A DNA stretch of 46,342 nucleotides from Candidatus Woesearchaeota archaeon (GCA_023264635.1 JAHFLT010000008.1:1-46342), one strand, 5' to 3'; positions 19,975-42,700 are shown, numbered from the stretch's first letter. Numbers and translations: made by a program. Notes: generated by a model not told the origin, from the letters alone.

Positions 19975-20100
19975 ATGTTGTCGACGGAAAAAAAGGCAAA
20001 CACATTTCTCGCTCCGGAAACGTTGGTTGTCCTTATTCTGACGGTGTTCTTTCTTCTCATAATGTTTTATTTATTTGTTACTTTGGTAATCAAAAAGTGA
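19975..20100 (+). CDS. 41-aa single-span membrane protein
   Basis: ATG at 19975 opens a 41-codon frame: a charged start (MLSTEKKANTF), a hydrophobic helix from about residue 14 to 38 (LAPETLVVLILTVFFLLIMF and on) and a closing IKK. A TATA box at leaderless distance and a following gene ten bases downstream make it a real gene although it is short. Its hydrophobic part is similar in pattern to the 43-aa protein at 21841 (VLFFLLMFIFFLYVRL). Both head an operon of anchored proteins, so they may be small subunits of the same machinery. No family recognised. Confidence 0.6.
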   Translation: MLSTEKKANTFLAPETLVVLILTVFFLLIMFYLFVTLVIKK

Positions 20101-20109
20101 AAACAAAAA

Positions 20110-20895
20110 ATGAAAAAGGGTCTCGAATTCAGCGTGCTTGTGACACTCATTATTGTGTTAGTTGGAGGGCTTCTTCTCGTCTATTATCTTTCATCAATCA
20201 CCAGTGAATTTGAAAGAAAAACAGATATCGAAACGTGCAGGTTGAGCATAATCGCCAATGCAAAAGCAGAGCAGTCGCTTTTGTCACTCGCAGCACCAAT
20301 CACGTGCCCAGCAGAACGCATCTTTCTTAGACAAAAGGACAAGAAAGTTGTAGCAGCAGATGTAACAAAGCAGATGAAGGATTGCTGGTACAAAATGGCT
20401 GAAGGGCAAATATCTGTATTCGGTCGCGCATGGACCCAGACAAAATCATCTTGCCTTGTCTGTAGCGAGTTTGTGCTCACAAACGATCTCAGTGTCAATG
20501 CTGTTAAAGAGTATCTTACCTATAAAGTTCCCCATAGCGATCAAACCTATCTTGATTATTTTAGTGTTCTCAACCAACCAAGAGCTCCATCATCAGACAT
20601 TTTTTTTGTGGATGTGGGTATAGATGGACCAAAGCGCCTTGAGACATTTGTCAAAGCAACGCCTTACTTCGTGCTCTTTGTGCGTCAACAAAGGTCTTCC
20701 CTACAAAAATTCTTTTCCTCACTAACTGATGTCGTCTCTTCTCTGATGGCCAAGATTACTGGAGAAGAGCTCCTTCAAGATACGCAGACGTTTTTTATTG
20801 TTCCCAGGGAAAAGCTCACCCAATTAAAAAGTGACAATATCCCCCTCTGTCAGGATCTTTATTGGGAAAAAGGCGAAGAATATGCCAAACAATAA
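20110..20895 (+). CDS. Pilin-like anchored surface protein, paralogue of next gene
   Basis: 261 aa. Begins MKKGLEFSVLVTLIIVLVGG: lysines, Gly, then Glu within a long hydrophobic helix, resembling class III (pilin-type) signals, although Glu is at +2 rather than +5. The rest is extracellular-type. Cysteines lie in pairs: ETCRLSI near 41, TCPAE near 64, CW near 95, and CLVCS near 116. Shares layout with the next protein (C-x-x-SI-x-A-x-AK...CP). No recognised family. Starts nine bases after the 41-aa gene and overlaps the next by 14 bases. Confidence 0.65.
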   Translation: MKKGLEFSVLVTLIIVLVGGLLLVYYLSSITSEFERKTDIETCRLSIIANAKAEQSLLSLAAPITCPAERIFLRQKDKKVVAADVTKQMKDCWYKMAEGQISVFGRAWTQTKSSCLVCSEFVLTNDLSVNAVKEYLTYKVPHSDQTYLDYFSVLNQPRAPSSDIFFVDVGIDGPKRLETFVKATPYFVLFVRQQRSSLQKFFSSLTDVVSSLMAKITGEELLQDTQTFFIVPREKLTQLKSDNIPLCQDLYWEKGEEYAKQ

Positions 20896-21769
20896 AGGCA
20901 TGGAGATGGGAGTGATCGTAGTATTGATTGTTTGCATAATCATTTTAGTTCTTTTGATGCTGTATATCGGAAAAATAACGGAAAGCTTCAAAATAAACAC
21001 TGAAGTTAGTCGGTGCAAGACAAGTATCTATGCTTTTGCCAAGCTGCATGCAAGAGGATCAACCATTAAGCAACAGACAATCTCCTGTCCTGTTCATAAA
21101 TTGGTTGTCTCCAAGGAAGAGGACATACTTCCTATGGTAGCAAAAGAGATGGCAGTGCTTTGGGATAATTTCGGAGAAGGGAAATTGGATTTGTTCTCTC
21201 CAGAGGACGAAGTCTTTTGCGTACTTGGAAGCCATATTACTTTCTCAGGCATAAAAAAAGAAATGCATGGGTTATTGCCTTATCTTAATGAACATGCGTA
21301 CAAGCAGACAAGTTATCTTGAGTATCTGACAGGAATCCCTTCCTCCACGGTTACAAAATCTCAGCTTCTGTCACCACAGCTTCAACCACTCGACAAAATA
21401 GACACATCTCACCCTCTTGGCATACTTTTTGTTTACAACAAAGATACCAAAATGACAAAACAGGAAGGAGTTGTCTATGGTCTTGGTATCGGGACTGTTG
21501 TTGGTACTGTGGCGGGCATCGCAACCTTGTTTTATTTCCCCCCCGGAGGTATTTCTCTTTTGGGTATTACTATCATCTCTCCTTTACTTATAGGAACTGC
21601 ACAAGTCGCAAGTGTTACTGCTATCAGCAGCATTGCTTTAGCCACAACAGGATATCTCTTTGGTCACGATGAAAGCGCAGAGTGGGATGCAAGAATACTT
21701 TCAATACCTTTTACGCCTAAGGAAATAAGCAGACTGCCATGTACATATTGGCCTGTTCCCCTCACATAA
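20882..21769 (+). CDS. Pilin-like anchored surface protein with C-terminal hydrophobic region
   Basis: 295 aa from the ATG at 20882 (a longer frame from 20831 would lie inside the upstream gene). N-terminus MPNNKGMEMGVIVVLIVCII is a lysine-glycine motif followed by a hydrophobic helix. The next 60 residues resemble the upstream protein (SRCKTSIYAFAKLHARG...SCPVH). Unlike that protein, it has a long hydrophobic glycine-rich part at about 198-275 (GVVYGLGIGTVVGTVAGIA..., then LLGITIISPLLIGTAQVAS), probably two or three membrane helices. Function unknown; the paired arrangement suggests the two proteins interact. Confidence 0.65.
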   Translation: MPNNKGMEMGVIVVLIVCIIILVLLMLYIGKITESFKINTEVSRCKTSIYAFAKLHARGSTIKQQTISCPVHKLVVSKEEDILPMVAKEMAVLWDNFGEGKLDLFSPEDEVFCVLGSHITFSGIKKEMHGLLPYLNEHAYKQTSYLEYLTGIPSSTVTKSQLLSPQLQPLDKIDTSHPLGILFVYNKDTKMTKQEGVVYGLGIGTVVGTVAGIATLFYFPPGGISLLGITIISPLLIGTAQVASVTAISSIALATTGYLFGHDESAEWDARILSIPFTPKEISRLPCTYWPVPLT

Positions 21770-21810
21770 TAAGGTACGTTCATTCATTTTGTATATCTCA
21801 TTTTAATAAA

Positions 21811-21822
21811 GCATTTAAACTA
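21811..21822 (+). promoter_or_regulatory. TATA box of the second envelope-cluster operon
   Basis: GCATTTAAACTA, centred about 25 bases before the ATG at 21841. Confidence 0.5.
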
Positions 21823-21840
21823 TCCTTCTCTGTACTATTT

Positions 21841-21972
21841 ATGTCAAAGGGTTCCATTGTGTGGGATAAACTGGTGAACATCCTTCTTGCACTCATTGTC
21901 TTATTTTTCCTGCTTATGTTCATTTTTTTCCTTTATGTCCGCTTAACTAAAACAGAGGTTCCTTGGATCTAA
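21841..21972 (+). CDS. 43-aa single-span membrane protein
   Basis: MSKGSIVWDKLVNILLALIV starts a 43-aa protein with one membrane helix (about residues 11-35) ending in RLTKTEVPWI. The open frame extends upstream to 21739, but the TATA box places the start at 21841. One base separates its stop from the TPR gene. It resembles the 41-aa protein at 19975 in size, position and helix composition. No known family. Confidence 0.6.
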   Translation: MSKGSIVWDKLVNILLALIVLFFLLMFIFFLYVRLTKTEVPWI

Positions 21973-21973
21973 G

Positions 21974-22975
21974 ATGAAAAAAGGGATGGCTCTTGAGCAG
22001 GTAGCCTATGCAATCATAGCGTTAGTGATTCTTGTTGTTGTTGCTACCATGTTTTATCGAAGTGGTCAAGGAATATGGTCCACAGTAGAGACAGCATTTT
22101 CCTCAGAGTCACGTTGCCTCAAAAGTGGAGAGGTAGTATCAACCTATAAAAGCGATATAGCTGTACTAGAGAGTACTCTCAGCAAAGAATCAAAAGATTC
22201 ATCAGCCTATCGTGAAGCGCAAGAGAAACTCGGTGCTCTTTATGATGAGTATCACCAATGCGGGTTTAGTGAGACATTATCACTTTCACCAGTAGCAAAG
22301 CTGGCATTAGTTGGCTATTACGCAGCAAAAGGGAACACTGCTGCAGCTATAGCTTTGTATGAAGAATATTTGGCTCAGAACAAGGTAACCCCGGACATTC
22401 TGAATGGCCTCTCCGACCTATATAAACTCAGTGGCAACGATCTAAAGTCACTGGCCACATTGCGTCGCATTGTTGCTGAAAATCCCGATACAAAAGATGC
22501 CGCATCGGCACAATACAGGGTCGGCCGTTATTATGAAAAAAAAAAGGATTATACCAAAGCAAAAGAGGAATATCAGAAACTACTCAATGGGAACTATTTT
22601 TCAGAGCTGGCAGAATATGCCATTGCAGAAATCACATTCAACAACGAAAAACCAGCACCATATCCAAGCACCCTTTCTGGAGAGCAGGAAAAGGAAGTTG
22701 ATACCATTTACAACAGGGCTCGTGCTTCTGAGAAAGCCGAGAAATATGAAGAAGCAATAGTTCACTATCGTCTTCTCACATCACGATATCCAACAGCAAG
22801 GCAAGGCGTTTATGCACAGTATGAAATAGGTCATATCTATCGCCAGAAAAAAGAGCTGGACAGGGCTGTTGTGGAGTTCACCAGGACACCACACTACGGC
22901 TCTTATGGAGCCCTTGCAGCCCTAGAGTTAGCGCAGACAAAGATAGACCTTAAAGGCATCAAGAAGCCAATCTAA
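21974..22975 (+). CDS. Pilin-like anchored TPR protein
   Basis: 333 aa. KKGMALEQVAYAIIALVILV is pilin-like: basic residues, Gly, and Glu four residues after the Gly, then a 20-residue hydrophobic helix. Two cysteines (RCLKSG, HQCGF) follow, then TPR-type helical hairpins over about 105-325: AAIALYEEYLA, SLATLRRIVAENPDT, DYTKAKEEYQKLL, KYEEAIVHYRLLTSRYPTA and ELDRAVVEF. TPR arrays serve protein-protein contacts; an anchored one outside the membrane resembles assembly factors of secretion and pilus systems. The exact role is inference. Confidence 0.75.
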   Translation: MKKGMALEQVAYAIIALVILVVVATMFYRSGQGIWSTVETAFSSESRCLKSGEVVSTYKSDIAVLESTLSKESKDSSAYREAQEKLGALYDEYHQCGFSETLSLSPVAKLALVGYYAAKGNTAAAIALYEEYLAQNKVTPDILNGLSDLYKLSGNDLKSLATLRRIVAENPDTKDAASAQYRVGRYYEKKKDYTKAKEEYQKLLNGNYFSELAEYAIAEITFNNEKPAPYPSTLSGEQEKEVDTIYNRARASEKAEKYEEAIVHYRLLTSRYPTARQGVYAQYEIGHIYRQKKELDRAVVEFTRTPHYGSYGALAALELAQTKIDLKGIKKPI

Positions 22976-23025
22976 TCAAAGAGGAATAGAATCGAAGAAT
23001 GGAATCATAAAACTACAATACTAAA

Positions 23026-23042
23026 AATGGAATAAATCCATT
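23026..23042. terminator. Hairpin between convergent genes
   Basis: AATGGA-ATAAA-TCCATT forms a 6-bp stem between the TPR gene (ends 22975) and the minus-strand gene ending at 23043. No long T-run adjoins it, so termination is only suggested by position. Confidence 0.3.
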
Positions 23043-24095
23043 CTAATCTAATCTCCCATGTACTGCACATCGTATCTGCCCGGAGGAATCATTCAAGTAA
23101 TAACTATTCGCAGGCTCATGCAACAATTTGAGGCAGTTCCATTCATCACCAAACATATCTGCTTCAGCTTTGTTGCTGAGGTTGGGATATATTTTATGGC
23201 TTACAAAGTGCATATCCAAAAATTTTGTTACCAAGTGCTGCTGCCATGCGCATTTCTCTTTAATTGTTTCGGGAGTAACAGAAGGGGGCATATGCTTTGT
23301 GCACCAGACGTTGCTATGGTTATCAGAGAAATAAAGCCCACCGAATGTTTCCTTCACCTCTTCATCCAGTGCACCCAACCTTTTCAGCATACCCGTAAAC
23401 CCATCAGTCCCATCTTCTGCAGTAGCTTGATAGGCATTTCCATAATCAGCGCTGGATTTCTTTATAGCCTCTTCTATTTTTTTCTGGTAACTTATACATA
23501 TACTATACTCATCCATTAAAAGTATATTCTTCTCACGTCTGTGTAGAAGTCCATACAAGTTCTGCTGGTAAAACAGCATAATTCTTTTTGGACTTTGCGG
23601 GAGAGTGATTTTCAGTTCTTCTGCTAGTGCATAACCCATTGGCAGCAGCCATGACTCAGCATTGATAGACTCTGTCCCAAAGAGTTCTTTCGCTCGTCTC
23701 ATATCCACTTGTTTATGTATTTCTGAATCTTCCTTTACTTTTTTCGCTAACTTGGTAAAGATCGGTAAGACTTTATCATCTAATGTTCTGAGAAGCCAAT
23801 CTGTCAGCTGTTTGTTTCCCTCACGTTCATTGACAACCCAGTAGTTTTCATGTTGCATGATTTTTGCTTCGATAGTGACAGCACATTTTTCTCCATTGTA
23901 TATTATCATCCCGTCCCCCAATAAATTGATGAGTGGTGGAAGCATGCGCTTTATTGGGTCTTTAGTCAATGGAGTTGCTTTGATGCTTATGGTAACTGGA
24001 TGTTTTTGTGAAACCGTGTACGTCACGAAATCATCTTCTCCATTTTCAGCACATACGCCAGTTGCCAGAAGCAATGTTACTATAATTTTTTTCAT
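23043..24095 (-). CDS. Secreted protein of unknown function
   Basis: 350 aa. MKKIIVTLLLATGVCAENG is a standard Sec signal with a likely cut after VCA. The upstream part of the open frame (to 24224) has no coding character, and the ATG at 24095 gives the signal peptide. The mature protein has an N-terminal beta-rich part (VTYTVSQKHPVTISIKATPL), a lysine-rich helical middle, and six cysteines, three of them near WCTKHM, KCAW and NCLK. No domain recognised. It lies opposite in direction within the pilin-like cluster and shares the intergenic region with the gene at 24169. Confidence 0.65.
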   Translation of the reverse strand: MKKIIVTLLLATGVCAENGEDDFVTYTVSQKHPVTISIKATPLTKDPIKRMLPPLINLLGDGMIIYNGEKCAVTIEAKIMQHENYWVVNEREGNKQLTDWLLRTLDDKVLPIFTKLAKKVKEDSEIHKQVDMRRAKELFGTESINAESWLLPMGYALAEELKITLPQSPKRIMLFYQQNLYGLLHRREKNILLMDEYSICISYQKKIEEAIKKSSADYGNAYQATAEDGTDGFTGMLKRLGALDEEVKETFGGLYFSDNHSNVWCTKHMPPSVTPETIKEKCAWQQHLVTKFLDMHFVSHKIYPNLSNKAEADMFGDEWNCLKLLHEPANSYYLNDSSGQIRCAVHGRLD

Positions 24096-24136
24096 TATAC
24101 GAAGGAAAATGAACCTGTTTTTATCTTTTGCCAATA

Positions 24137-24148
24137 GGTTTAAATAAC
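24137..24148 (+). promoter_or_regulatory. TATA element between 23043-24095 and the Ca-loop gene
   Basis: GGTTTAAATAAC is nearly palindromic. It lies about 27 bases from the plus-strand ATG at 24169 (leaderless) and about 47 from the minus-strand ATG at 24095 (20-base leader), so one box may drive both. Confidence 0.5.
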
Positions 24149-24168
24149 CAGTGAGGATAAAGTGTGTC

Positions 24169-24666
24169 ATGAATTGCACGAAAAAAGCTGCAATGCCTCT
24201 CGAGGTAATTGCCTGGGCGATCATTGTACTAGTGGTTGTTGTTGTTCTTCTGTTGATTTTTCAAGGTCCAAGCCAAAGGGCACATACTTATTTTGGAGAA
24301 ACACTGGATTCTCTTGGGGATGCAGCTTGCCTTTCTCAGGGAATGCTGACAAAGGTTTCACCTAAAAATGATATAGACGGGGATAATAGACCAGACTCAT
24401 GTGATGTATGTGTTTGTGAAGGGGTTTGCCCTAACGGAAAAAACAGTAAGAATGATGAAGATGATAACGGAAACAAAATCCCCGATGGGTGTGACGATCT
24501 CAATGACCCCGAAGACCATTGGTGGCCTGGCTGCAAAAAAGAGGATAGGAACAATGCATTCTCTGGGAAAAATCCTGGCAGTATTGTTGTACTTGACAAA
24601 CAGAAGCGTACGTGGCAATGTAGATTAAAAACAACCCCCTCTCAAAGTGTTTCACTACCAAAATGA
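24169..24666 (+). CDS. Pilin-like anchored protein with calcium-type DxDxD loops
   Basis: 165 aa. KKAAMPLEVIAWAIIVLVVVV has the pilin-type order: basic residues, Ala, then Glu at +5 of a hydrophobic helix. The extracellular part contains two thrombospondin-type-3-like calcium loops, NDIDGDNRPDSCD (about 71-83) and NDEDDNGNKIPDGCD (about 97-111), each ending in PD-x-CD. The intervening cysteines (CDVCVCEGVCPNG) are probably disulfide bonded. Start at 24169 is set by the TATA box. Stop overlaps the next start as ATGA. Likely a minor subunit stabilised by calcium (inference). Confidence 0.7.
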   Translation: MNCTKKAAMPLEVIAWAIIVLVVVVVLLLIFQGPSQRAHTYFGETLDSLGDAACLSQGMLTKVSPKNDIDGDNRPDSCDVCVCEGVCPNGKNSKNDEDDNGNKIPDGCDDLNDPEDHWWPGCKKEDRNNAFSGKNPGSIVVLDKQKRTWQCRLKTTPSQSVSLPK

Positions 24667-25790
24667 AGCTCCTTGCCAACAAACGTGGCATATCTCTTGT
24701 CCTAGAAGCATTTATCGGTTTTCTCCTCGCAACTTTTGCTACAGTTATCTTGATCTATGTCGGCTTCCGTCTTGTGTCCCTTCTTATTCCACCAACAATA
24801 GATCCTGCTACTGAAGCAAATATGAACAATCTTGTTAAAGCCATCAATTTACTTAATTCTGGGAATAAAGAGAAGGATGTCATACGTCATTTTCCATTCC
24901 ATATAGGGGAGGACTATATTCTTGTGGGATTCCCAAAAGGACAAGGCATCATCGATGATTGCAGACCGTTGTCATTACCTTCAGCAATACAACGTCCTCT
25001 GCAGTGCGGAGATAATGCATGCTTATGTATTTATAAAAATATTCATGGTTTTGATGATTTAACCAAACAACCTCTGCGTTGCGTTGCGTTGTTCAATGTC
25101 GATATGATTTACAGTCCCTTTCATAGCGATGAAAGTAGTATGCAGCTTCGTTCAGGTTTGGCATCAGCGGTTTCAGAAAACTTGAGGGCGGCACCATTAC
25201 AGGTTAAGCCCAAGGCGTATGGGGGGTGGACGGGGCAATATCAATACTTTATTTTATATGGCCAATGCATGGCACCTCCTGCATTCAGTGTCCAGGAATT
25301 GTATGTCGATATGCATCGTGAAGAAGGCAAGACATTTATTTTCATTGCAGGAGAGTCTGGTCATGCACAAGACAGATATAACGACTTGCAGGAGGGATTG
25401 CCCGGCTTTCCACGTACTTTAGAGAAACAACTGGAAGAACTTATTGCTCTTATAGAAAAAAGCAAAGACCCCTACCAAGTCAATTATGCAGTTTTCACCG
25501 TACTTACAAATCCAGTATTAATCAATAGCTTTTTAGCAACGCACTCACTGGAGGAATTCAAGAAACTTTTCTTCAAGCGCTACGAGAAAAATCTGGTGCC
25601 GATTCCTACATTAACAGAAAGTCATATAAAAGATAATGCAGAACAGGTCTGGGAACAATATGAGAATGTCCTCATAAAACTCGGTTATCCCGGTAAACCA
25701 TGGTACGCAAGTACGTGCGTAGCAGCGTTTAAAACCGGTAAGGAAGAAAACGAGTGCTGGGTGCCCAAGAATAGGGATTTGAACAGGTAA
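24663..25790 (+). CDS. Large pilin-like anchored protein, unknown family
   Basis: 375 aa. NKRGISLVLEAFIGFLLATF is a basic-RG start followed by Glu inside a hydrophobic helix that runs to about residue 42. The ectodomain has a cysteine group near 100-125 (DDCRPL, QCGDNACLCIYK) and 140 (LRCVALF), and a final pair near 351-364 (STCVAAF, ECWVPK). The middle part (FSVQELYVDMHREEGKTFIFIAG) is beta-rich, the later part helical. Translationally coupled to the calcium-loop gene. No recognised domain; size and position suggest a major component or adhesin of the same apparatus. Confidence 0.65.
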   Translation: MKLLANKRGISLVLEAFIGFLLATFATVILIYVGFRLVSLLIPPTIDPATEANMNNLVKAINLLNSGNKEKDVIRHFPFHIGEDYILVGFPKGQGIIDDCRPLSLPSAIQRPLQCGDNACLCIYKNIHGFDDLTKQPLRCVALFNVDMIYSPFHSDESSMQLRSGLASAVSENLRAAPLQVKPKAYGGWTGQYQYFILYGQCMAPPAFSVQELYVDMHREEGKTFIFIAGESGHAQDRYNDLQEGLPGFPRTLEKQLEELIALIEKSKDPYQVNYAVFTVLTNPVLINSFLATHSLEEFKKLFFKRYEKNLVPIPTLTESHIKDNAEQVWEQYENVLIKLGYPGKPWYASTCVAAFKTGKEENECWVPKNRDLNR

Positions 25791-25803
25791 AAACACAATC
25801 TCC

Positions 25804-25827
25804 AGTAACTCATTTTTTTCTGTTACT
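25804..25827. terminator. Hairpin with T-run downstream of 24663-25790
   Basis: AGTAAC (25804-25809) pairs with GTTACT (25822-25827); the loop contains seven T (25813-25819). It lies 14 bases after the stop of the preceding gene. Confidence 0.45.
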
Positions 25828-25900
25828 CTATACCTCCTAATCCCATTTGAACGTCTATAAAAAACTCTGAAAACTAAACTGAAAGTGAAATTCCAAATAC

Positions 25901-25918
25901 TCATTGAAGTATCAATGA
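25901..25918. repeat. Perfect 7-bp inverted repeat between convergent genes
   Basis: TCATTGA-AGTA-TCAATGA. A third half-site, TTCAATGAA, follows at about 25932-25940 over the stop of the regulator gene. It could be a transcript-end hairpin or a binding site. Confidence 0.4.
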
Positions 25919-25932
25919 ATAATAATAATGTT

Positions 25933-26508
25933 TCAATGAAGCATCACTGGGCTTTTCATCTGTTCAACATGGTGAGATGCCAACATTTTCATTCCATATT
26001 CTGAGAGCCTCACATAACTGTGTCTTCCTTTTTTCATTCTCTCAATAAAGTGGAGTTCCTCAAGACGTTTGAGGTAATTTGCAACAGTGGTCTGCATTTT
26101 TTCAACATTCTGGGTCCCATACAGTTCAGCATTAGTTGTTCTCACTGGAACATACTGTGCTCCATGCTCTCGCTGCAATGACCCAATGAGAAAAAGTGTT
26201 TTTCTTTGCTGCTCAGTAAGTATGTCCAGCGATGCCCCATCATATTGTCGTATTATCCTGTTTTGAGCTTCAGTGAACTGTTGATGAACTATTTCCTTTT
26301 CTTCAGATTGCTTCATCAAATGTTCATTGAACTTTTTTTCAACATTTTTTTTCCATTCCTCATGTTCGTTCTGTGCAGCTTCATTTTGTGTAGCAATAAG
26401 TGAGAGTTCCTCTATACGCTCTTTTAGATATGAAATCCATTTTACCAAGAATTCATTATCTTTTTTTACCTGTTTGAATGATTCCCTTACTTTTCTCTCA
26501 TTAATCAT
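25933..26508 (-). CDS. Coiled-coil winged-helix transcriptional regulator
   Basis: 191 aa. Residues about 1-90 are a highly charged coiled coil (KWISYLKERIEELSL, HEEWKKNVEKKFNEHL). The C-terminal half is a MarR/PadR-like winged helix: LTEQQRKTLFLIGSLQ (first helix), MQTTVANYLKRLEELHFIERM (recognition helix and turn), KKGRHSYVRLSEYGMKML (wing). The coiled coil could serve for dimerisation or for sensing a partner. It diverges from the 26662 operon, lies inside the envelope cluster and has a candidate operator in front of it, so it probably regulates the cluster. Confidence 0.75.
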   Translation of the reverse strand: MINERKVRESFKQVKKDNEFLVKWISYLKERIEELSLIATQNEAAQNEHEEWKKNVEKKFNEHLMKQSEEKEIVHQQFTEAQNRIIRQYDGASLDILTEQQRKTLFLIGSLQREHGAQYVPVRTTNAELYGTQNVEKMQTTVANYLKRLEELHFIERMKKGRHSYVRLSEYGMKMLASHHVEQMKSPVMLH

Positions 26509-26530
26509 TTGAAATCTACAAGACTTCTAA

Positions 26531-26540
26531 GCTTAAATGC
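26531..26540 (-). promoter_or_regulatory. TATA box of the winged-helix regulator
   Basis: Minus strand GCATTTAAGC, centred 27-28 bases before the ATG at 26508; leaderless. Confidence 0.5.
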
Positions 26541-26560
26541 GTTTATGTCGTCGGAAAAAG

Positions 26561-26586
26561 TGCATACTACATGTAGATTATGCATA
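26561..26586. promoter_or_regulatory. Candidate operator between divergent regulator and envelope operon
   Basis: A compound dyad: the palindrome CTACATGTAG (26567-26576) is flanked by TGCATA on the left and TATGCA on the right. It lies between the regulator's TATA box (26531-26540) and the TATA box of the 26662 operon. The sequence TGTAGATT from its right half occurs again on the minus strand near the regulator's start (about 26513-26520), as expected if the regulator binds both places. Confidence 0.45.
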
Positions 26587-26631
26587 CAGTATATCTGCCA
26601 ATTCAATTTAGGCACCATTCATATCAAAAGC

Positions 26632-26641
26632 CATTTAAAGC
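26632..26641 (+). promoter_or_regulatory. TATA box of the 26662-29444 operon
   Basis: CATTTAAAGC, centred about 26 bases before the ATG at 26662. Confidence 0.5.
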
Positions 26642-26661
26642 TAAAATATATGAGTTAGTCC

Positions 26662-27048
26662 ATGGTCTGTTGGTCAAAAAAAGGAGCCATGGAAGCAGAG
26701 ACGTTGGTTATACTAGCTGATGTTTTCTTTTTGCTGCTTGTTTCTGGAGTACTCTTATCTGAGCTCAGGGACGTGCAAAAAAATACGACTTTCGAGAAGG
26801 CATATGTAGCAAGTGATCTTGCAGCACTGCTGGCAACAATCCAAGTCTTTGCAGGTGATGTGGTAATAGAGTACACGCTTCCGCTCACGCTCACTGTAGA
26901 ACTGCGTGGAAATGAAGTAGTAGTTTCTGATGATGGAGCTGCTGTAAGTCACATATTTCCCAAAATTATTACATCAACACCCGTTACATTATCTTCTATA
27001 ACAAAATTTAAGATTGTCAAGAAAGGCCGCGAGGTGACACTCTTGTGA
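26662..27048 (+). CDS. Small pilin-like anchored protein
   Basis: 128 aa. SKKGAMEAETLVILADVFFLLLVSGVL: two lysines, Gly, Glu at +3 and +5, then a hydrophobic stretch, the best pilin-type N-terminus of the cluster. The remaining 90 residues form a short beta-rich domain (VVIEYTLPLTLTVELRGNEVVVSDDGAAVSHIF) without cysteines. No family recognised. It opens a four-gene run in which each gene overlaps the next, an arrangement like that of minor pseudopilins in type II secretion loci. Confidence 0.65.
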   Translation: MVCWSKKGAMEAETLVILADVFFLLLVSGVLLSELRDVQKNTTFEKAYVASDLAALLATIQVFAGDVVIEYTLPLTLTVELRGNEVVVSDDGAAVSHIFPKIITSTPVTLSSITKFKIVKKGREVTLL

Positions 27049-27521
27049 AAGCTCAGATTACTTCTACAATACCAATAACCGTTATGAAATATGGCATAGC
27101 AGTACTTCTTGTTTTACTTCTAAGAGCAATAACGCCTTACACTATGGTTATGCATGTGGATACTGGAGAAGCTGAGCGTTATCTTTTTATGAACCAATTG
27201 CTGGCATCGTCGCTTGTGTTAGAGAAAGACGGGTATGCACATGTTGGTGTTCTTGATCCAGCAAAGATATCTACTTTAGACCAGCGCATCACCTACGACC
27301 ATAGACTAGCGGCCAAGATAATACTATCCAACGCTACAGGTACTCTCAATTCAGAAGGATTTTTTCAAGAGGAATGGTATAAGTTGTGGTCTGTACTCGT
27401 GGGCAAGAGAGGTCCTGGCGGCACTGTGAAGGAGGAGAAAATATATTATGTTCTGTATCAAGAAGGAGAAAAACTTATCCCGGGAACAGTGAAGATTGAC
27501 GTGGTGATGCCCATTGGATAG
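27045..27521 (+). CDS. Anchored protein of the pilin-like operon, unknown family
   Basis: 158 aa. GTG start overlapping the upstream stop as GTGA. One hydrophobic helix near residues 14-27 (KYGIAVLLVLLLRAITPY), without the basic-Gly motif of its neighbours. The ectodomain (about 35-158) has no cysteine and includes AERYLFMNQLLASSLVLEK, which resembles the helix after the anchor in archaeal pilin-like proteins. Overlaps the next gene by eight bases. Confidence 0.6.
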   Translation: MKAQITSTIPITVMKYGIAVLLVLLLRAITPYTMVMHVDTGEAERYLFMNQLLASSLVLEKDGYAHVGVLDPAKISTLDQRITYDHRLAAKIILSNATGTLNSEGFFQEEWYKLWSVLVGKRGPGGTVKEEKIYYVLYQEGEKLIPGTVKIDVVMPIG

Positions 27522-28008
27522 AGGATTTCTCGCAGAAGTTATACCCATAGCATTATCTTTGTTCCTCTTTGCGTTCATATTTATCATATTTTATGCACTA
27601 CTCTCCTACAGCGGAGAGCAGCAAACTACGCTGCTTACCAGCGCATCCTCAAAAACATCGTCCATGAATGAACTTCTCTCACTGCTTCAGACTCCCATAC
27701 TCCTTAATGATGAAACAGTGCCACTTGCAGATGCAATGGTCATGGCGATCGAAAGGCCAGAATACCAACTTAGGGTACACGATGAAATAACGCAACATAT
27801 GTTTCTTTTTCATGCTCCAACCAAAAAGACGCTCTGTGGGTATGTCCTCATTCTGAGAAACGGCAACAAAGAAGTACTTTCAGCGCACTCAATACAATTT
27901 GCCACAACAGCATATGTCTATGAAACGTACCCATTTACCCTATCGTCTTACAAATCACCCGGTACTATATACAACGCTGATTTCAGCGTGGAGTGTAGTG
28001 CTTATTGA
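27514..28008 (+). CDS. Anchored protein of the pilin-like operon, unknown family
   Basis: 164 aa from the TTG at 27514 inside the preceding gene's end. MDRGFLAEVIPIALSLFLFA: Arg-Gly, Glu and a hydrophobic helix to about residue 32, so again a pilin-like anchor. The ectodomain has the segment MNELLSLLQTPILLNDETVPLADAM followed by beta strands and two cysteines (LCGYV, VECSAY). Overlaps the SLT-domain gene at its stop (TTGA). No recognised family. Confidence 0.6.
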   Translation: MDRGFLAEVIPIALSLFLFAFIFIIFYALLSYSGEQQTTLLTSASSKTSSMNELLSLLQTPILLNDETVPLADAMVMAIERPEYQLRVHDEITQHMFLFHAPTKKTLCGYVLILRNGNKEVLSAHSIQFATTAYVYETYPFTLSSYKSPGTIYNADFSVECSAY

Positions 28009-29444
28009 AAATGACAAAAGGCGTTATTTTTAGTATCGGACTGGTGTTGATTACCATTGGCTTTTTATCTGGGTTACTGCTCGTCGTCATGACAAAAGAG
28101 GGCAAGTTTGCGCAAAAAGCTATAGGAGAGTATAGTTACCAAATGATTGATAAATTTTATGACATTGAAATTGCTCGTCAATCCCTTATACAATCAGGAC
28201 GTTTTGCATTACTTGCAGCTGAAAAATCTTCTCTCGAGCAAGGGATACGTGAGGCTTGCCCAATGGAAAACGGGGTTGCTGTTTGGTCAGGAGAAACGGA
28301 TTGTTTCCCAACAAAAGATGATTTTGAAAAAAGCATTACGGTCAAAGTAGGAACCCTGCTACAGAAATACCAGAAGAGTATGCTTTATCTTGATGATAAT
28401 TACGAGCTTATAGTGAATGTGCAGCCTTCTCACATAGTTCTCACTGCAAGACCATATAGTTTGGTAACGTACGAAGTAGACAAGCCAAGCCAGAAAGGGG
28501 AACCCTATCTCGCATCCTCTGAATCACTCTCAGAAAAAATAACAACTGAAAAAATCACAGCATGTCCATTTCCCCAACGGCTATTGGCACAGAAATACCT
28601 CGCAGCATTTTCACGGTATCAAACATCCATCTTTGCAGCTTCAAAAAGATTTTCTGTTGACCCGGCACTGTTAGCTGCCCTTATTACAGAAGAAACAAGC
28701 TTTGGCACTAATCCGGAGGCAGATCGTACAGATGACTATGGACGACCAATGAAAGATGGGATTCCGGATTATTTGGCTGGGTGTCGTGTCTGTTACATTG
28801 AAGGATGTCTCGATCATTCAACAGTAAGCGATCTTACTAAAAGCAACTGGCGTGCACCGCCCAATAAACCTGACCATAATATCATGTGTGCAGCAGAACG
28901 CATTGCAGCGTATAAATCAAAAATAGCGTCTGGGGAAGCATTTGGTTGCCTTATGGACTCTCGTTACGATGGGCAATCTGAAAATATGCTCATAAGAAAA
29001 TTGGCTTGCACTTATAACAGTGGGCCAGAAAAGTACTCCTATGCAGAAGAAGTGTATTCTTTCTTTTTACAGTGGAAGGATGTGCTGTGCAAGCAGAATC
29101 TGCTGACGGGAGGCGTTGTAACCAATCCTGCACCGGCACAACGCAATGCAATATACAGTGCAATGCCAGCTTTTTCTTCGGAGATTAATGTAAACATGAC
29201 TGAAATAGAAACAGTCATCTCCAAAGCAAAGGAGCTTGCAGTGCTCTGTAAGACTAATAGTATTCTTTGTCTTCAAAAGTCACCATTTCTTGATGCATCA
29301 TGCACTGCAAAATACAAAACATTGCCAAAAATAGAGCCAGGCAAGTCATTAGTGCTTACGTTCTGCAGTCCCATCACCGCACCTCTGCTTAATGATAAAC
29401 CATTTTACTTAAAATTCTCATTTTTGCTTCCTCAACGTCATTAA
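28005..29444 (+). CDS. Anchored protein with lytic transglycosylase-like (SLT) domain
   Basis: 479 aa from the TTG at 28005; ATG at 28011 is an alternative. TM anchor about 5-29, an ectodomain of unknown fold (30-190), then an SLT-like domain at about 200-365. Its pattern ALLAALITEETSFG places the catalytic glutamate at E230, and LACTYNSGPEKYSYAEEVYSFF (with YNSGP at 337-341) matches the closing YNAGPG...Y motif of the family. A cysteine-bearing insertion lies between them. A C-terminal domain with more cysteines follows. Such enzymes cleave peptidoglycan glycan strands, which archaea do not have; the target may be another cell's wall or another glycan. Last gene of the operon. Confidence 0.78.
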   Translation: MKMTKGVIFSIGLVLITIGFLSGLLLVVMTKEGKFAQKAIGEYSYQMIDKFYDIEIARQSLIQSGRFALLAAEKSSLEQGIREACPMENGVAVWSGETDCFPTKDDFEKSITVKVGTLLQKYQKSMLYLDDNYELIVNVQPSHIVLTARPYSLVTYEVDKPSQKGEPYLASSESLSEKITTEKITACPFPQRLLAQKYLAAFSRYQTSIFAASKRFSVDPALLAALITEETSFGTNPEADRTDDYGRPMKDGIPDYLAGCRVCYIEGCLDHSTVSDLTKSNWRAPPNKPDHNIMCAAERIAAYKSKIASGEAFGCLMDSRYDGQSENMLIRKLACTYNSGPEKYSYAEEVYSFFLQWKDVLCKQNLLTGGVVTNPAPAQRNAIYSAMPAFSSEINVNMTEIETVISKAKELAVLCKTNSILCLQKSPFLDASCTAKYKTLPKIEPGKSLVLTFCSPITAPLLNDKPFYLKFSFLLPQRH

Positions 29445-29462
29445 AAACGTCTTCAACTATAG

Positions 29463-29472
29463 ATTTTTAAAC
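29463..29472 (+). promoter_or_regulatory. TATA box of the phosphoesterase gene
   Basis: ATTTTTAAAC, centred 26 bases before the ATG at 29493. Confidence 0.5.
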
Positions 29473-29492
29473 CGCTTTGATTCTAAAGGGAT

Positions 29493-30077
29493 ATGAACAT
29501 TTTGGCATTTGCTGATTTGCATGCACATAAAGTTTCAATGGAGAAACTACGCAAGAAGAGCAAAGAGGCGGATATAATCATCGCTGCAGGAGACATGTCC
29601 ATCTTCGGGAACCATCTTGATACTGTTATGGGATTCCTGATATCTTTAGGCAAGCCTGTTCTTGTTCTCCATGGTAATCATGAGAGTGAAGAAGAAGTAA
29701 TTGGATTAGTGGGCGGATCCATGCACTTCATCCACAATAGCAGTTTTATGTTTGCAGGAACATTGTTCATTGGGTGGGGTGGTGGTGGATTTTCTATGGT
29801 AGACACTGCTTTTGAAAGGAATATGAAGGCTTTTATTTCACAATGTTCACACTCTAAGAAAACGGTCTTCATTACGCATCAGCCACCTTACGGAACAAAA
29901 CTTGACAAAATCTATGGTAGCTACGTTGGCAACAAGTCTTTCCGTACATTCATCCGTCAAGCACAGCCAACCCTCGCAATAAGTGGTCATATCCACGAGA
30001 CTGCAAGAAAAACAGATCTTCTGGGTAAGACGTTCCTGGTAAATCCGGGACCAGAAGGGATGTTGCTGAAAGTTTAA
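29493..30077 (+). CDS. Calcineurin-like metallophosphoesterase
   Basis: 194 aa. All motifs of the binuclear-metal phosphoesterase fold are present: ADLHAH (7-12), AGDMS, LHGNHES (GNHE), THQPPYG and SGHIHET. Similar to small archaeal YfcE/MJ0936-like enzymes; the substrate is not predictable, possibly cyclic nucleotides or phosphodiesters. Leaderless single gene, convergent with TYW1. Confidence 0.88.
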   Translation: MNILAFADLHAHKVSMEKLRKKSKEADIIIAAGDMSIFGNHLDTVMGFLISLGKPVLVLHGNHESEEEVIGLVGGSMHFIHNSSFMFAGTLFIGWGGGGFSMVDTAFERNMKAFISQCSHSKKTVFITHQPPYGTKLDKIYGSYVGNKSFRTFIRQAQPTLAISGHIHETARKTDLLGKTFLVNPGPEGMLLKV

Positions 30078-30098
30078 AATCCCTCCAATTCAAAATAT

Positions 30099-31037
30099 TC
30101 AGAATTCCATTATTCTTTCTTTGCTGTCTTCTCGCGCTAGCAGCACGACTCTGCTCACTTCTTTTTCATCGATTATTCTAAGCTCGGGGTTGTGTCTAAC
30201 AATATCCAGTGCAAACTGCTTGATTTCCAGATAGGTTGGCATACTGCTTATTTCTAAACGTTCGCGTGAATGACCAATCCACATATAGCCTTTCAGCTCG
30301 TAGAATTTCGCACGGACAGTTTTAAACATATCTGCATATAATTCCGGATGTACCATATTGTACCCCTTTGTGAGCGTCATCCTGATAACAGTACGCTTGA
30401 AATTTGGGAGCATGTTCAATGTCTCTTGTAAGCGCTGCCATGCGTTTGGAGTAATGGGCATTGCGGATTTTTTATAAATATCTTCATTTGGTCCATATAA
30501 GCTAACATACAACTGGGTTGGCTGGTTATCCAGCAATTGCCTTACCATTAAAGGGATAGTCCCATTTGTCACCAAATAAGAAGTGATGCTACGCTTATGC
30601 AGTTCTGCAATGAGCTCAGGAAGGCGTGGATACATTGTCGGCTCTCCAGTCAAAGAAATAGCGAAATGGAGCGGTTTTTTCATCTCATCCAATCGCTGTT
30701 TGTCTACATGTGGATTCCCACCAAATCCTTGTAAATATTTTACCTGTTCACGAATACATCCCTCTATGATGTCAACAGGATTATCAACAGGTCCTTGCCA
30801 TGTGGGATATGTATACTTCGTGTCACGCCAGCAGAAAACACAGCGATGGTCGCACATATGTGTTGGGCTCATTTGTACGCACTGCCATGAGTGGATGCCG
30901 TAGAATTTACACTTGTAGCAGGTATCTACTCCCCTTATCGCTTTTTTTGTCCATTCACATACTTTGATGAGACTGTGATTCCCGACAACACGGTATCCCT
31001 GTCTCTCAAAGTCAAGTCTCTTCTCGGGACTGAGCAT
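30099..31037 (-). CDS. taw1: S-adenosylmethionine-dependent tRNA 4-demethylwyosine synthase TYW1
   Basis: 312 aa, archaeal length without the flavodoxin part of eukaryotic TYW1. Radical-SAM enzyme that builds the tricyclic base of wyosine at position 37 of tRNA-Phe from pyruvate and m1G. The radical-SAM cluster motif is C62-x3-C66-x2-C69, and the second cluster cysteines of the family are C27, C40 and C53. SLTGEPTMYPRL is the SAM-binding region, TSYLVTNGT and YVSLYGPN follow. It shares a central TATA box with the divergent gene at 31091. Confidence 0.95.
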   Translation of the reverse strand: MLSPEKRLDFERQGYRVVGNHSLIKVCEWTKKAIRGVDTCYKCKFYGIHSWQCVQMSPTHMCDHRCVFCWRDTKYTYPTWQGPVDNPVDIIEGCIREQVKYLQGFGGNPHVDKQRLDEMKKPLHFAISLTGEPTMYPRLPELIAELHKRSITSYLVTNGTIPLMVRQLLDNQPTQLYVSLYGPNEDIYKKSAMPITPNAWQRLQETLNMLPNFKRTVIRMTLTKGYNMVHPELYADMFKTVRAKFYELKGYMWIGHSRERLEISSMPTYLEIKQFALDIVRHNPELRIIDEKEVSRVVLLAREDSKERIMEF

Positions 31038-36708: not shown

Positions 36709-39700
36709 TCACATACTCTTCTTCACATACTCTAAGTGATGGTCCAACAATTTTTCTACAATGTCATCCTCCCACTCCTCACGCAACTTCGCCTTAAGTT
36801 CATGAATAGAGGCACCTTTTTCTATGTCCTCTTTTATCTTTGTGCATACCTCCTTGAGTTTCTTTTTGATGCATTTGGCCATATCAAGCATTACGTTTGC
36901 CGGGATATTATATCGTGAGAGCACAGATTCATAATTCCCTTTTCGTAAGATTGCGATGATGCATTGTTTTATGCACTCAGTATTCCTTTGGTTTATCTGG
37001 GAGCGTATCTTTTCAACAATGTCTTCTGGTAATTTCGTTTTGATATATTTTTTATCTCCATTAATACTCGTTTTCCATAGTTGTTCGTATATGCTTGCTA
37101 TTTTATCCATCTCTTCTGCAACAATCTGCATGACTAATTCCTTGTTCCAACCAGCGTGTACGAATTCATGGATTATCTGGTTTGGCTTGTAACCATTTGT
37201 CAATGCATCAACTACACGGTAAGTGACAGCCAGACAGAAGTCTTTGTAAGGTTCTAATGTTTTATTCACCATTTTTCTGGAAAGACCAACATCAATCAAT
37301 GTTCTGCAGATTTCCCTGTCATCTACTCCACCTTTTACCGCTGCCCGAACAAATTCATCTACTTGTGTAACAAATGTATCGTACTTCCTGAGTTTCTTAG
37401 TAATGTAAGGTAACTGTAGTCCACTCTTGAGGAGCATGAGCTTGATTTGCCATAAGGGTTTCCCATGCGTAATGGCATAGGTAAGAGGTCTATTCCTTAT
37501 ACTCGTAATTATCTCCTGAATTGTATTATGGTATGCTTGCACAAATGAGTGATATGTATCTGTAAAAGTGTACCAAGTGCTTAAAAATGTGGAAATTACC
37601 GTATGGATGAGATGATGATACTTCTTCTTTAGAGCATGTTCTACATTAGTTATCACAGTGCCGATTAATTCCATTCTATAATAGTACCATTCACGTAATG
37701 CACTCACTCTGTTTACAAGTCCACTAACGTTTTCGTATATCTCTCCACGATACCTCTCTTCTGAAATAAACAATCTGTTTACTCTCATTGTTACTTTTTT
37801 CTTACCAATACGCACAATAGGTGTATATGTCTTGATAGAGAATACTCGTTGTATTGTTTCATACCAATAATTGAATAGTGGAGGCCATCTCTTCGTAATA
37901 TTCTCTATAAATCTCTTCCTGACAATCCTCTGGTACGCTACATACCCTCCCAATACTGTGGCAAGAATAAGGATGGCTACAAGAAGATTATAGAACGCTA
38001 CTTCTATTGGTCTTTTGACTATGACTGGTTTTACTTCTACCAATTGTGGGAGAACTGGTTTTTCTATCCACTGGCATGTTTCTGTTTCCACACGCTGCAA
38101 TATGCTCAGGTCACATTTGCTATCGTCAGTACAAATCCGCATCCGATTACCTGTTTCATTGTATTGTCCCCATTCGCTGCATACCCAATTTTCAGTACAT
38201 GCGGTTGCACCACCACTTATTGTTTTCAGCCAGCCTTTCTTTTTGGTTGTCACGGTGGCTGTGGGAGTTTCTGTTGTTGGGCATTTGCCGCAGTCAAACT
38301 CACAGTTTGAACACATCTCTCCTTCATCACATGAATTATCACCACAGTACGGAGCATATGGAGAAGGACCTATGCCAAGTCCGGGGTCATGCGGTTTGAT
38401 ACTCGTATTAACATAAATCAATCCTTTTGGTAAGTGCTGCCAGACAATCCATGCTGTGTCATTATTACATCTCCCCTCAGTAAAGTTCCAGTCAGCGCAT
38501 TTGAATACTTTATATCTCGGTCCTGAACAAACATATCCCAACTCAATAGTCATTTCAGTAAAGTTGGCAATCGGTTCAATGCCGACAATAGATTCGAATT
38601 TCGTGAAATTGGATGCATTGACCGGCACTTGTTGCAGTCTCGCAAATTGGCTGATATTGACATAGCCTCCTTTTGCACCAGTACCTGAGATAGAAACACG
38701 TGCTATTGCGGGGATTGGTTGTGCTTGTGCCACTGGTTCAGCTGCAGCAGCTGCGACAGCCACAGGCGCAGCAGCTTCTCCTGGGCCGGCAGTAGGTGCT
38801 TGTGCTGCTGGGCCAGCTTCACCTGCTGCTTTTGATTCTCCTCCAGCACCAGCTCCGCCACCTGTTGTACCTCCAGAAGCACCTCCAGCTTCTGCTGCAG
38901 TACTCACTTCAACAGTTATCTGGCTTGTTATCGTTTCAAAGCCATCGCTTACTCGAAGTGTTACGGTATCAGAACCAGCAGCACTTGCTGTTAATGTTAC
39001 TATTCCACCACTAACGGTAGCAGTAACTAATCCTGTTGTTGATGCAGTGAAAGAGAGTGTGTCTCCATCCTCATCACTGAATCTTGAAAGAAGGTTGACT
39101 GTCGTACTCGATTTTGCTTTGAAGAATTGTGCTGGCACACTACCTGTAGGTGGAACATTAATGATGAATGCGAAGATATCTGATGAGTTCCAGTTGTTGC
39201 TTGTGTCATTAGCATATACTCTCCAACCTACTCTTGAACCATGCGTTGCATTGATTCTTGTTACGTTCACAGAATTATTTGTTGTTCCGCTAAATCTCTC
39301 AAAGGAAGTATTAACAAACTGTCCTGAGTTATTTATACTAAAGATGAAACCTGATAAGCCAACGGTATCTGTCCATGTTAGATTGAATAAAGCAGTATCA
39401 TTATTTTTTATGCTTGTAAAGTTTGTTATGTTGTTGCTCCAGCCTGGTGGTTGGTTGTCTGCTACGGTAAATGAGAATATTGAGGATGAGTTCCAGTTAT
39501 TGGTGGTATCATTTGCATAAAATCTCCAGCCAACTACTGAACCGGGGACAGCATTAATACGTGTTAGATTAGTAGAAACATTTTGCGCTCCTGAAAATCG
39601 TTGGAAGGTACTATTGACAAAAGTGCCGGAATCATTGATGCTGAAGATAAATCCAGACAAGCCGACATTATCTGTCCATGTGACGTTGAACAGTCCATTG

Positions 39701-42700
39701 GCTCCTTCACTGATTGTTGTGAAATTAGTGGCGTTATTACTCCATTGCGGAGCTTCTCCTGTTATGGTGAAGGAGAATGTGTTAGTTGAGTTCCAGTTGT
39801 TAGTCGTGTCATTAGCATAGATTCTCCACCCAATGACTTCCCCACTTCTTTTTGTGTTGTTGATAGTGTACGCAACACTGCTGACATTGTTTGTGCCAGT
39901 GAGTGATGTAAAGCTTCTGTTGACAAAGAGCCCAGAGTCATTAATGCTGAATATAAATCCAGACAAGCCGACATTATCTGTCCATGTGACGTTGAACAGT
40001 CCATTGGCTCCTTCACTGATTGTTGTGAAATTAGTGGCGTTATTGATCCATTGTGGAGCTTCTCCTGTTATGGTGAAGGAGAATGTATTAGTTGAGTTCC
40101 AGTTGTTAGTCGTGTCATTAGCATAGATTCTCCACCCAATGACTTCTCCACTTCTTTTTGTGTTGTTGATAGTGTATGCAACACTGCTGACATTGTTTGT
40201 GCCAGTGAGTGATGTAAAGCTTCTGTTGACAAAGAGCCCAGAGTCATTAATGCTGAATATAAATCCAGACAAGCCGACATTATCTGTCCATGTGACGTTG
40301 AACAGTCCATTGGCTCCTTCACTGATTGTTGTGAAGTTAGTGGCGTTATTACTCCATTGCGGAGGGGTCCCGTCACTTACACCACGTGCTTGGGAATTAC
40401 TCGTTATACCAAACTCTCTCCCATCAAATGGCTCAATTCTAAACATAAGGTTACTGCCATTCCCATACACAGAATTATCCAATCCAAACAATGGGAAGTT
40501 TCTCAGGAAAGATTGATTAATTTCTTCTGAAGTTAATGCTCTATCATAAATCGCAACTTCATCTATCGTTCCATTAAAGAGGAACGCGTTTGCAATACGT
40601 GTGGAATTACCTATACTAATAGTAGGAGCAATTACAGAGATGATGTCTCCTCTCACTAGCTGTCTTCCCGTAAGAGTACCGTTGACGTATATAAGGAGAT
40701 CAGTTCCATTGTAGGTTCCAACGATATGGGTCAATGTTCTATTTGGAATGATTGTACTAAAGACGCTGTTCGGATCAGTCACATTATGAATCAAGAATGT
40801 AGCAGAGCCATTGCTCGAGAGGAATAATTCGTAGGCTCTCTGCGTACCATTACCTACCGCAAGAATTCTTCTATTGCCATAATCATTTGTGCTTATCCAT
40901 GCTTCGACTGTTATGTTCCCTGAAAGATTAAGGTTTCTCGCTCCAATGGTAAGGACATTTTGATCAACACCATTGAATGTTCCAGCAGGCGTTCCATATT
41001 GACCATTTGTTGTAAAGCCAAGCGTTCCTGTCAGATCATTCTTCCCAAATGCATCTTTTATTGTACTTCCACTATTCTCATTGAAGTGCCACATTGATAC
41101 GGGCTTGTCGGGAGCTGGTGTGCCCACCTCTGCTTTGTCTAATGCGCCGTAATCCATCATATTATACAAGTTTGCTATCTCAAATGGTGACAGTGTCCTG
41201 TTGTAGATACGGACTTCGTCTATTGTGCCATTGAAGTTGTAAGCACTTTGTGTTGTTAGGGTGTTTCCTGCTGCACCAATTGTCAACGATGCTGTTCCAT
41301 CTACTATGTTGTCAGGATTACCAGCTGTTTGAGAACTGTCGATGGCATTTGTTTCAAAGATGCCATTAAGGTATATGCTCGTTCTATTTTCTCTATTCGC
41401 AGTGCCATTGTAAACAACAATAATATGCGTCCAGACATCAGGTTGTATTTGGGTTGTTGTTGTAATCCATCTCTGCGCTACACCAGCACCAAGGTCCCCA
41501 TGCCATGCAAAAGTAACTGTCCCGGGTACTGATGAACCGCGCGTCCCCAAGAACCATTGTCGTTGGTCTTCCCCAACGAGACCATCTGCATATTTGCTAA
41601 TGAAAAACTGGTTTTGAGCAGTTGTACTTCTTCTTGGTTTAACCCAAAGTGAGATTGTAAAGTTTGCACCAGCTGCAGTAAATGTGTTATCGAGAACATC
41701 ACCAAAATGAATGGCATCATTGTTCTGAGTTCCGTTAAATGCAAATGCTCCTTTTGTGATACCTCCTCTAGAGAGATTTCCGGCGCCTGCGATAGAACCC
41801 GCATTGTTTCCAGTAGAATTATCTACTGCACTGCCATCTAATCTCCAATAGCCCACTAGTGTTTTATCCGTTAACCATACTTCACTCCCATTAACAAACC
41901 ACGTCCAGACTGAGCCGTTCTCCACATCATTATCTGCATCACTGTAGTTCCATGCGCCGGCTACATCCATTGCTGTTGTGGGACTATAAGGAGTGATGTT
42001 GACTAACGATACATTCGGTAATGTATTTCCCACAATAAACGTAAAGATACTCGTGCTATTCCAATTATTATTCGTGTCGTTAGCATAAACTCTCCACCCT
42101 ATAACCTCTCCTCTTCTCTTTGTACTGTTGATTGTCTTTGCCACGCTGGAAACATTTGTTGTACCACTAAATCGTACGGTTGTATCATTAACAAATAGTC
42201 CACTATCATTAATGCTGAAAATGTAACTTGACAACGCAGTCTCATCCGTCCATGTTACATTAAACAACCCATTCTCTCCTGCACGGATTGTAGTGAAATT
42301 GGTAACGTTGTTGCTCCAACCTGGTGGAGATATATCTGCACCAGCTGGTGAAGTGAAATTGAAGAGCCACGTTTCATTAATATCTCTAGATGAAATTCTA
42401 CCACCAAATAAAATAACCTGGTTAATTCTTCTGTCAAATGCCATTGCATGTGTTGCTACTCTTGGTGGAGAAATTTGTGCAGTTGTAAGATTAAACCAGG
42501 TGTTGCTACTTGTATTGTATCCATATGTGTTATTTCCATAATTTCCCGCTTGTGCTCCAAATACAATTATGAGTTTCGTATTTGAATCATATACTGCAGC
42601 ATGACCGTTATGGCCGGGTAGAGTATCTGGAACTATTCTAGGGCTCCATTGGTTGTTAGTAGCGTTATATACCCAAGTCTCATTGGTAGCGGATGCACCG

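Follow-up and report, generated by a model that had tools for sequence, protein, structure and literature searches.

A conserved pilin-type gene cluster of Woesearchaeota and its possible display of exchangeable peptidoglycan hydrolases

In the genome of a Candidatus Woesearchaeota archaeon (GCA_023264635.1; 46 contigs, 1.32 Mb, 96% complete), a stretch of 46,342 nucleotides (JAHFLT010000008.1:1-46342; G000:C26:1-46342), here called the window, contains a row of genes whose products begin with a membrane anchor and mostly lack a recognisable family. What might the archaeon assemble from these proteins, and against what would it be directed? The original prediction, made from the sequence alone, was of an envelope or pilus-like machine. 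We consider it on balance probable that the row belongs to a type IV pilus-like device displaying a murein hydrolase, and that the window holds half of a conserved Woesearchaeota locus. Taken as a whole, the observations behind the prediction were partly confirmed and its interpretation is supported.

Re-reading of the sequence bore out the coordinates and N-terminal anchors of the cluster genes, with one correction: eleven plus-strand genes had been counted, whereas there are ten, and two minus-strand genes interrupt the row. It opens with two pilin-type paralogues, Q1 (20110..20895, 261 aa), whose N-terminal helix region reads MKKG followed by LEF, and Q2 (20882..21769, 295 aa from the ATG at 20882), which has a second hydrophobic segment and homologues with E-values down to 1e-34. 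Their homologues are paired side by side in many relatives. Many Q proteins have, besides the N-terminal helix, such a second segment at about residues 230-260, which is unusual for a pilin. A 44-aa single-helix protein follows (21838..21972; small single-helix genes occupy the same place in loci L051, L052 and L059), and then a 333-aa protein (21974..22975) combining a class III N-terminus of the strict pattern with TPR repeats. The TPR assignment is solid (TPR_2, 5.2e-13) and is the only solid Pfam/NCBIfam match in the row, much as had been expected. After a minus-strand gene with no family assigned (23043-24095) come a small pilin-type protein of 165 aa with calcium-loop-like acidic repeats (24169..24666), which also has the strict class III pattern and has related helices in the same place in relatives, and the pilin-type protein P (24663..25790, 375 aa). 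These two genes share a 4-base overlap. A single-sequence search found P in 33 of 193 genomes of the order, and in most loci it lies directly upstream of A, the first gene of the quartet described below. The second minus-strand gene (25933-26508) had been read as a regulator within the cluster; the gene is there, but on the opposite strand and with only a weak winged-helix match below the cut-off (PF22665, 4e-5). Both minus-strand genes were considered as members of the system and left out, since no relatives of them were detected in the other loci.

The row closes with an overlapping quartet made up of A (26662..27048, 128 aa), B (27045..27521, 158 aa), C (27514..28008, 164 aa, TTG start) and D (28005..29444, 479 aa, TTG start). 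All three predicted overlaps are present, namely GTGA between A and B (27045-27048), 8 bases between B and C, and TTGA between C and D (28005-28008). Elsewhere in the window, on the minus strand at 36709-46080, an open reading frame of 3123 aa contains Kelch beta-propellers, Laminin_G_3, a bacterial Ig domain and lectin domains of the sialidase type, and looks like a large surface adhesin.

That the cluster proteins may be made as class III (prepilin) precursors is suggested by their N-termini. A strict class III pattern with an uncharged hydrophobic run occurs in five of the ten cluster genes, compared with 7 of 99 control open reading frames, and a looser test for K/R-G/A is positive in eight of ten and 10 of 99, respectively. 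All seven strict-positive controls themselves have pilin-type N-termini, and four of them are genes U1 to U4 of this same system on contig C31. Starts of the KKG or KKA type are common throughout the relatives. The cluster thus has the prepilin-type N-termini (K/R-G/A and then a hydrophobic helix) that mark the type IV filament superfamily of type IV pili (T4P), type II secretion systems (T2SS) and the archaellum. A glutamate after the basic-Gly/Ala motif had been noted for six genes (21974, 24169, 24663, 26662, 27514 and, weakly, 20110); an early glutamate is indeed found in all six, but its position is not fixed and it is not conserved in relatives. Two more genes of class III type, reading KRG followed by QTTLF and KRG followed by QATLF (L045:11868-13775, on G000:C31), lie close to the second prepilin peptidase of the genome.

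Conservation of the gene order was assessed with profiles rebuilt from the parts after the membrane helix (head-only), which avoids helix-helix matches. Iterated profiles that included the helix drifted, the 'families' of 21838 and 24169 swelling to more than 100 members, and for this reason only the head-only profiles are trusted. Over the fetched loci and the window they found A in 71 loci, B in 73, C in 55 and D in 77, and they recovered the order Q-Q...P-A-B-C-D, which in the window runs from 20110 to 29444, in many families of the order. Among 56 unseen loci, fetched by D alone, lying outside the training set and with enough upstream sequence, 52 have B on the same strand as D and at most three genes upstream of it, and 46 keep the order A-B-D. 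Of 164 neighbouring pairs (A-B, B-C or C-D), 143 overlap or are separated by no more than 10 bp, against 350 of 669 background pairs. The same order and the same co-occurring genes are found in distant families of the order Woesearchaeota, as the prediction required, and an order that recurs in dozens of genera is far beyond chance. Upstream of Q, relatives have a giant extracellular protein together with four more genes of class III type (1-2-3-4); these large partners, giant Ig/TSP3 proteins, are conserved in the locus. Relatives also contain short 85-aa KKAQGISINVIIIAA-type genes, whose products look like major pilins.

In the genome studied here the other half of the locus is found on contig C31 (L161, G000:C31:8988-18000), where U4-U3-U2-U1 are accompanied by a giant Ig/TSP3 protein whose length is 2167 aa or more. 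This U half directly adjoins RPA- and RadA-like genes (named by eye) of the kind that follow D in relatives, and from this neighbourhood the window is best read as one half of an ancestral locus that has since been split. The neighbours of the two halves are exchanged (28005-31037; L162, L010, L163): the Q-to-D half in the window adjoins a metallophosphoesterase (29493) and a radical-SAM gene (30099), and in genomes G001 and G002 the U half adjoins the metallophosphoesterase/radical-SAM place and D adjoins RPA/RadA.

The window contains no assembly ATPase or platform protein, which the original prediction named as its main gap. The gap is filled, but elsewhere in the genome. At the end of contig C7, one strong secretion ATPase (PF00437, 2.1e-39) is encoded at C7:79482-80480, directly followed by two adjacent genes for PF00482 platform proteins (C7:80978 and C7:81793) and then by a GQAAIEFLMTYGWAI-type gene. 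Two A24 prepilin peptidases (PF01478), both above the cut-off, are encoded at C32:40865 and C31:38397. The genome thus contains all three components that were to be searched for and that are expected of a type IV filament superfamily system. Because the ATPase and the cluster lie on different contigs, we infer their partnership; across the genome sample the ATPase and D are each common and do not occur together more than expected (193 genomes with both; Fisher p 0.54).

Two of the proteins, B and D, were modelled with AlphaFold. As a pilin-type protein should be, B is predicted to be a long N-terminal helix followed by a beta head (helices 4-37 and 41-56, strands 58-156; pLDDT 90.9, pTM 0.77). 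When the head was compared with solved structures by profile and by Foldseek, no pilin was matched, and according to the model B is pilin-shaped with a head of an unrecognised type.

The last gene, D, was the unexpected finding. Its N-terminal pilin-type domain (28005..28520) comprises about 180 aa and has a class III start; two of its residues, Gly41 and Trp94, are invariant. The profile of this domain (A4) was found in 247 of 288 genomes of the order, covering 172 of 193 genera and mostly in a single copy per genome. The C-terminal parts vary between relatives, and those that can be assigned are almost all peptidoglycan hydrolases. Among 76 D proteins these are SLT (25), M23 (20), M15 (5), VanY (5), NlpC/P60 (3), M74 (2), Amidase_2 (2) and CHAP (2), together with YkuD, 3D and glucosaminidase, and the best E-values reach 1e-29 for SLT and 2e-29 for M23. 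This count is biased, part of the sample having been picked for known SLT or M23 matches, and less biased sets are therefore given alongside it: a hydrolase domain was found at 1e-3 in 8 of 16 complete D proteins of a first set chosen by another gene, and at 0.01 in 12 of 20 D proteins chosen from those for which no strong SLT or M23 match was listed. Lists joined by eye contain some 150 D frames, of which about 40 had SLT or M23 (18 SLT, 26 M23, 4 both), where well under one coincidence is expected by chance with about 1-2 such domains per genome. D proteins from other families within the order clearly exceed the Pfam cut-off for SLT.

On a quick tree of the pilin part with 47 labelled rows the cargo changes state at least 23 times, a count inflated by errors in the tree, which is weak and short. 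A hydrolase cannot be recognised in some D proteins, and one of these cases has a metallophosphoesterase. At L139:9002-10477 and L065:1241-3481, a calcineurin-like phosphoesterase or a GDSL lipase takes the place of the murein hydrolase in D-type proteins. Of the 21 D homologues listed from other orders of the class, 20 are short open frames of 235-309 aa and, judged by this length, apparently carry no cargo. Open frames of the P family that include M23 or SLT were found in G094, G177 and G079. The genomes compared here encode many further SLT and M23 proteins.

The D protein of the window itself had been predicted to be an SLT enzyme. Pfam does not carry this assignment, its SLT_2 match (0.019; 14.6 bits against a curated cut-off of 24.3) falling below the threshold, but the fold and close relatives do. 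The D of the congener G001, 51% identical, matches SLT_2 at 3.6e-4. In the AlphaFold model (mean pLDDT 80.2) the C-terminal cargo region (28590..29093) is a helical domain. Goose-type lysozymes, MltC, Slt and MltF head its Foldseek matches to solved structures (probability 0.9-1.0, E 0.05-0.2), and by fold it belongs to the lytic transglycosylase/lysozyme superfamily. Glu230 in ETSFG (codon 28692-28694) stands, by motif position, at the ET/ES position of the family and is the putative catalytic residue. A divergent lytic transglycosylase/lysozyme-like domain is therefore supported for the window's D, which had no match when searched against named genomes.

How these parts might work together can be proposed as follows. 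The prepilin peptidases of C31 and C32 would trim the class III precursors, and the C7 ATPase with its two platform proteins would assemble the subunits into a pilus or pseudopilus. A minor-pilin initiation or tip complex would be supplied by the four genes that close the row (26662-27045-27514-28005). D would carry its peptidoglycan hydrolase on the cell exterior. As the enzyme has often been changed and the pilin part kept, the device would locally cut the wall of whichever bacterium the archaeon holds. This points to a surface device by which these archaea attach to bacteria or break into them. More tentatively, and as a possibility that we would not yet call probable, the T4P tip subunit may be a modular hydrolase mount in an archaea-on-bacteria contact machine, swapped repeatedly to suit the wall of the host or prey.

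A bacterial target is probable, since no PBP transpeptidase was found in the window genome or in 25 of the 29 genomes tested, most of them with hydrolase cargo. The same result, together with a mixture of glycosidases and D-Ala endopeptidases that fits murein and varies among relatives, unlike a house-keeping enzyme, makes it very improbable that the hydrolases remodel the archaeon's own envelope, although a PBP-type transpeptidase is encoded in 4 of the 29 and gaps in metagenome-assembled genomes could account for absences. G011, G049, G107 and G113 each encode a murein-hydrolase cargo and a PBP-type transpeptidase domain protein. The SLT cargo of G012 shares 33-38% identity with proteins of Clostridia, which would agree with its having been acquired from bacteria.

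The proteins might instead form a membrane-anchored envelope complex, their helices staying in the membrane and holding an extracellular assembly that displays the hydrolase. The large conserved Ig/TSP3 partners would suit such a complex, as would an ATPase uncorrelated with D and a B head unlike solved pilins, and the case for a pilus is made from genes and predicted models. We nevertheless regard it as rather unlikely, since one genome combines class III N-termini with prepilin peptidases and a T4P ATPase/platform operon, the overlapping order is typical of minor pilins and the 85-aa genes of relatives resemble those of major pilins. Less likely again is a pseudopilus that pushes hydrolases out in the manner of type II secretion, with D as a minor pseudopilin and a released or displayed enzyme. 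GspH, GspI, GspJ and GspK are the minor pseudopilins of type II secretion, with GspK last, and the quartet would be analogous in consisting of four overlapping pilin-type genes closed by a large one, D; these genomes also have many other SLT and M23 proteins. For B, profile and Foldseek comparisons detected no relation to the GspH-I-J-K heads in sequence or fold. Archaea, however, have one membrane and hence no secretin step, D has a helix of its own as anchor, and no separate exoprotein was identified.

The type IV pilus-like reading matters in several ways. For most Woesearchaeota, D gives a concrete molecular reason to seek bacterial hosts, its near-universal, mostly single-copy pilin-type gene bringing with it a defined protein set for testing. 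If the contact-machine proposal were true, most Woesearchaeota would live on bacteria, as episymbionts or predators, and not on archaea. The openly accessible literature yielded no paper joining pili with these murein hydrolases.

Among known systems the closest are the archaeal T4P (Makarova, Koonin and Albers 2016, PMC4858521), which likewise have class III pilin-type proteins, a VirB11/PilB-type ATPase, a TadC-type platform and an A24 peptidase. Two TadC-type platform proteins per locus were noted there for euryarchaea, as here, and the ATPase/platform module lies apart from the pilin set, as with Haloferax PilB3. The text of that census mentions neither DPANN/Woesearchaeota nor transglycosylases, and the present system differs in that its pilin families have no Pfam/NCBIfam model and murein hydrolases are carried by the pilin-type protein at its end. 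The killing of bacteria by archaeal peptidoglycan hydrolases has been described, the enzymes being made, like those here, by archaea without murein and abundant in Nanoarchaeota (PLoS Biol 2025, PMC12352652); by a term search, that paper mentions neither pili nor type IV systems. Lytic transglycosylases on extracellular proteins of Woesearchaeota and Pacearchaeota were reported earlier, with attachment to or attack on bacteria proposed for these archaea (Castelle 2021, PMC8204110; Vigneron 2022, PMC9723730), and a term search found pili in neither paper. Unlike in those reports, where the transglycosylases appeared as isolated proteins, the enzyme here has a genetic context: it is one of many swappable cargoes on a fixed pilin-type domain within a conserved pilin locus, which adds a case of pilin-type subunits as exchangeable enzyme mounts.
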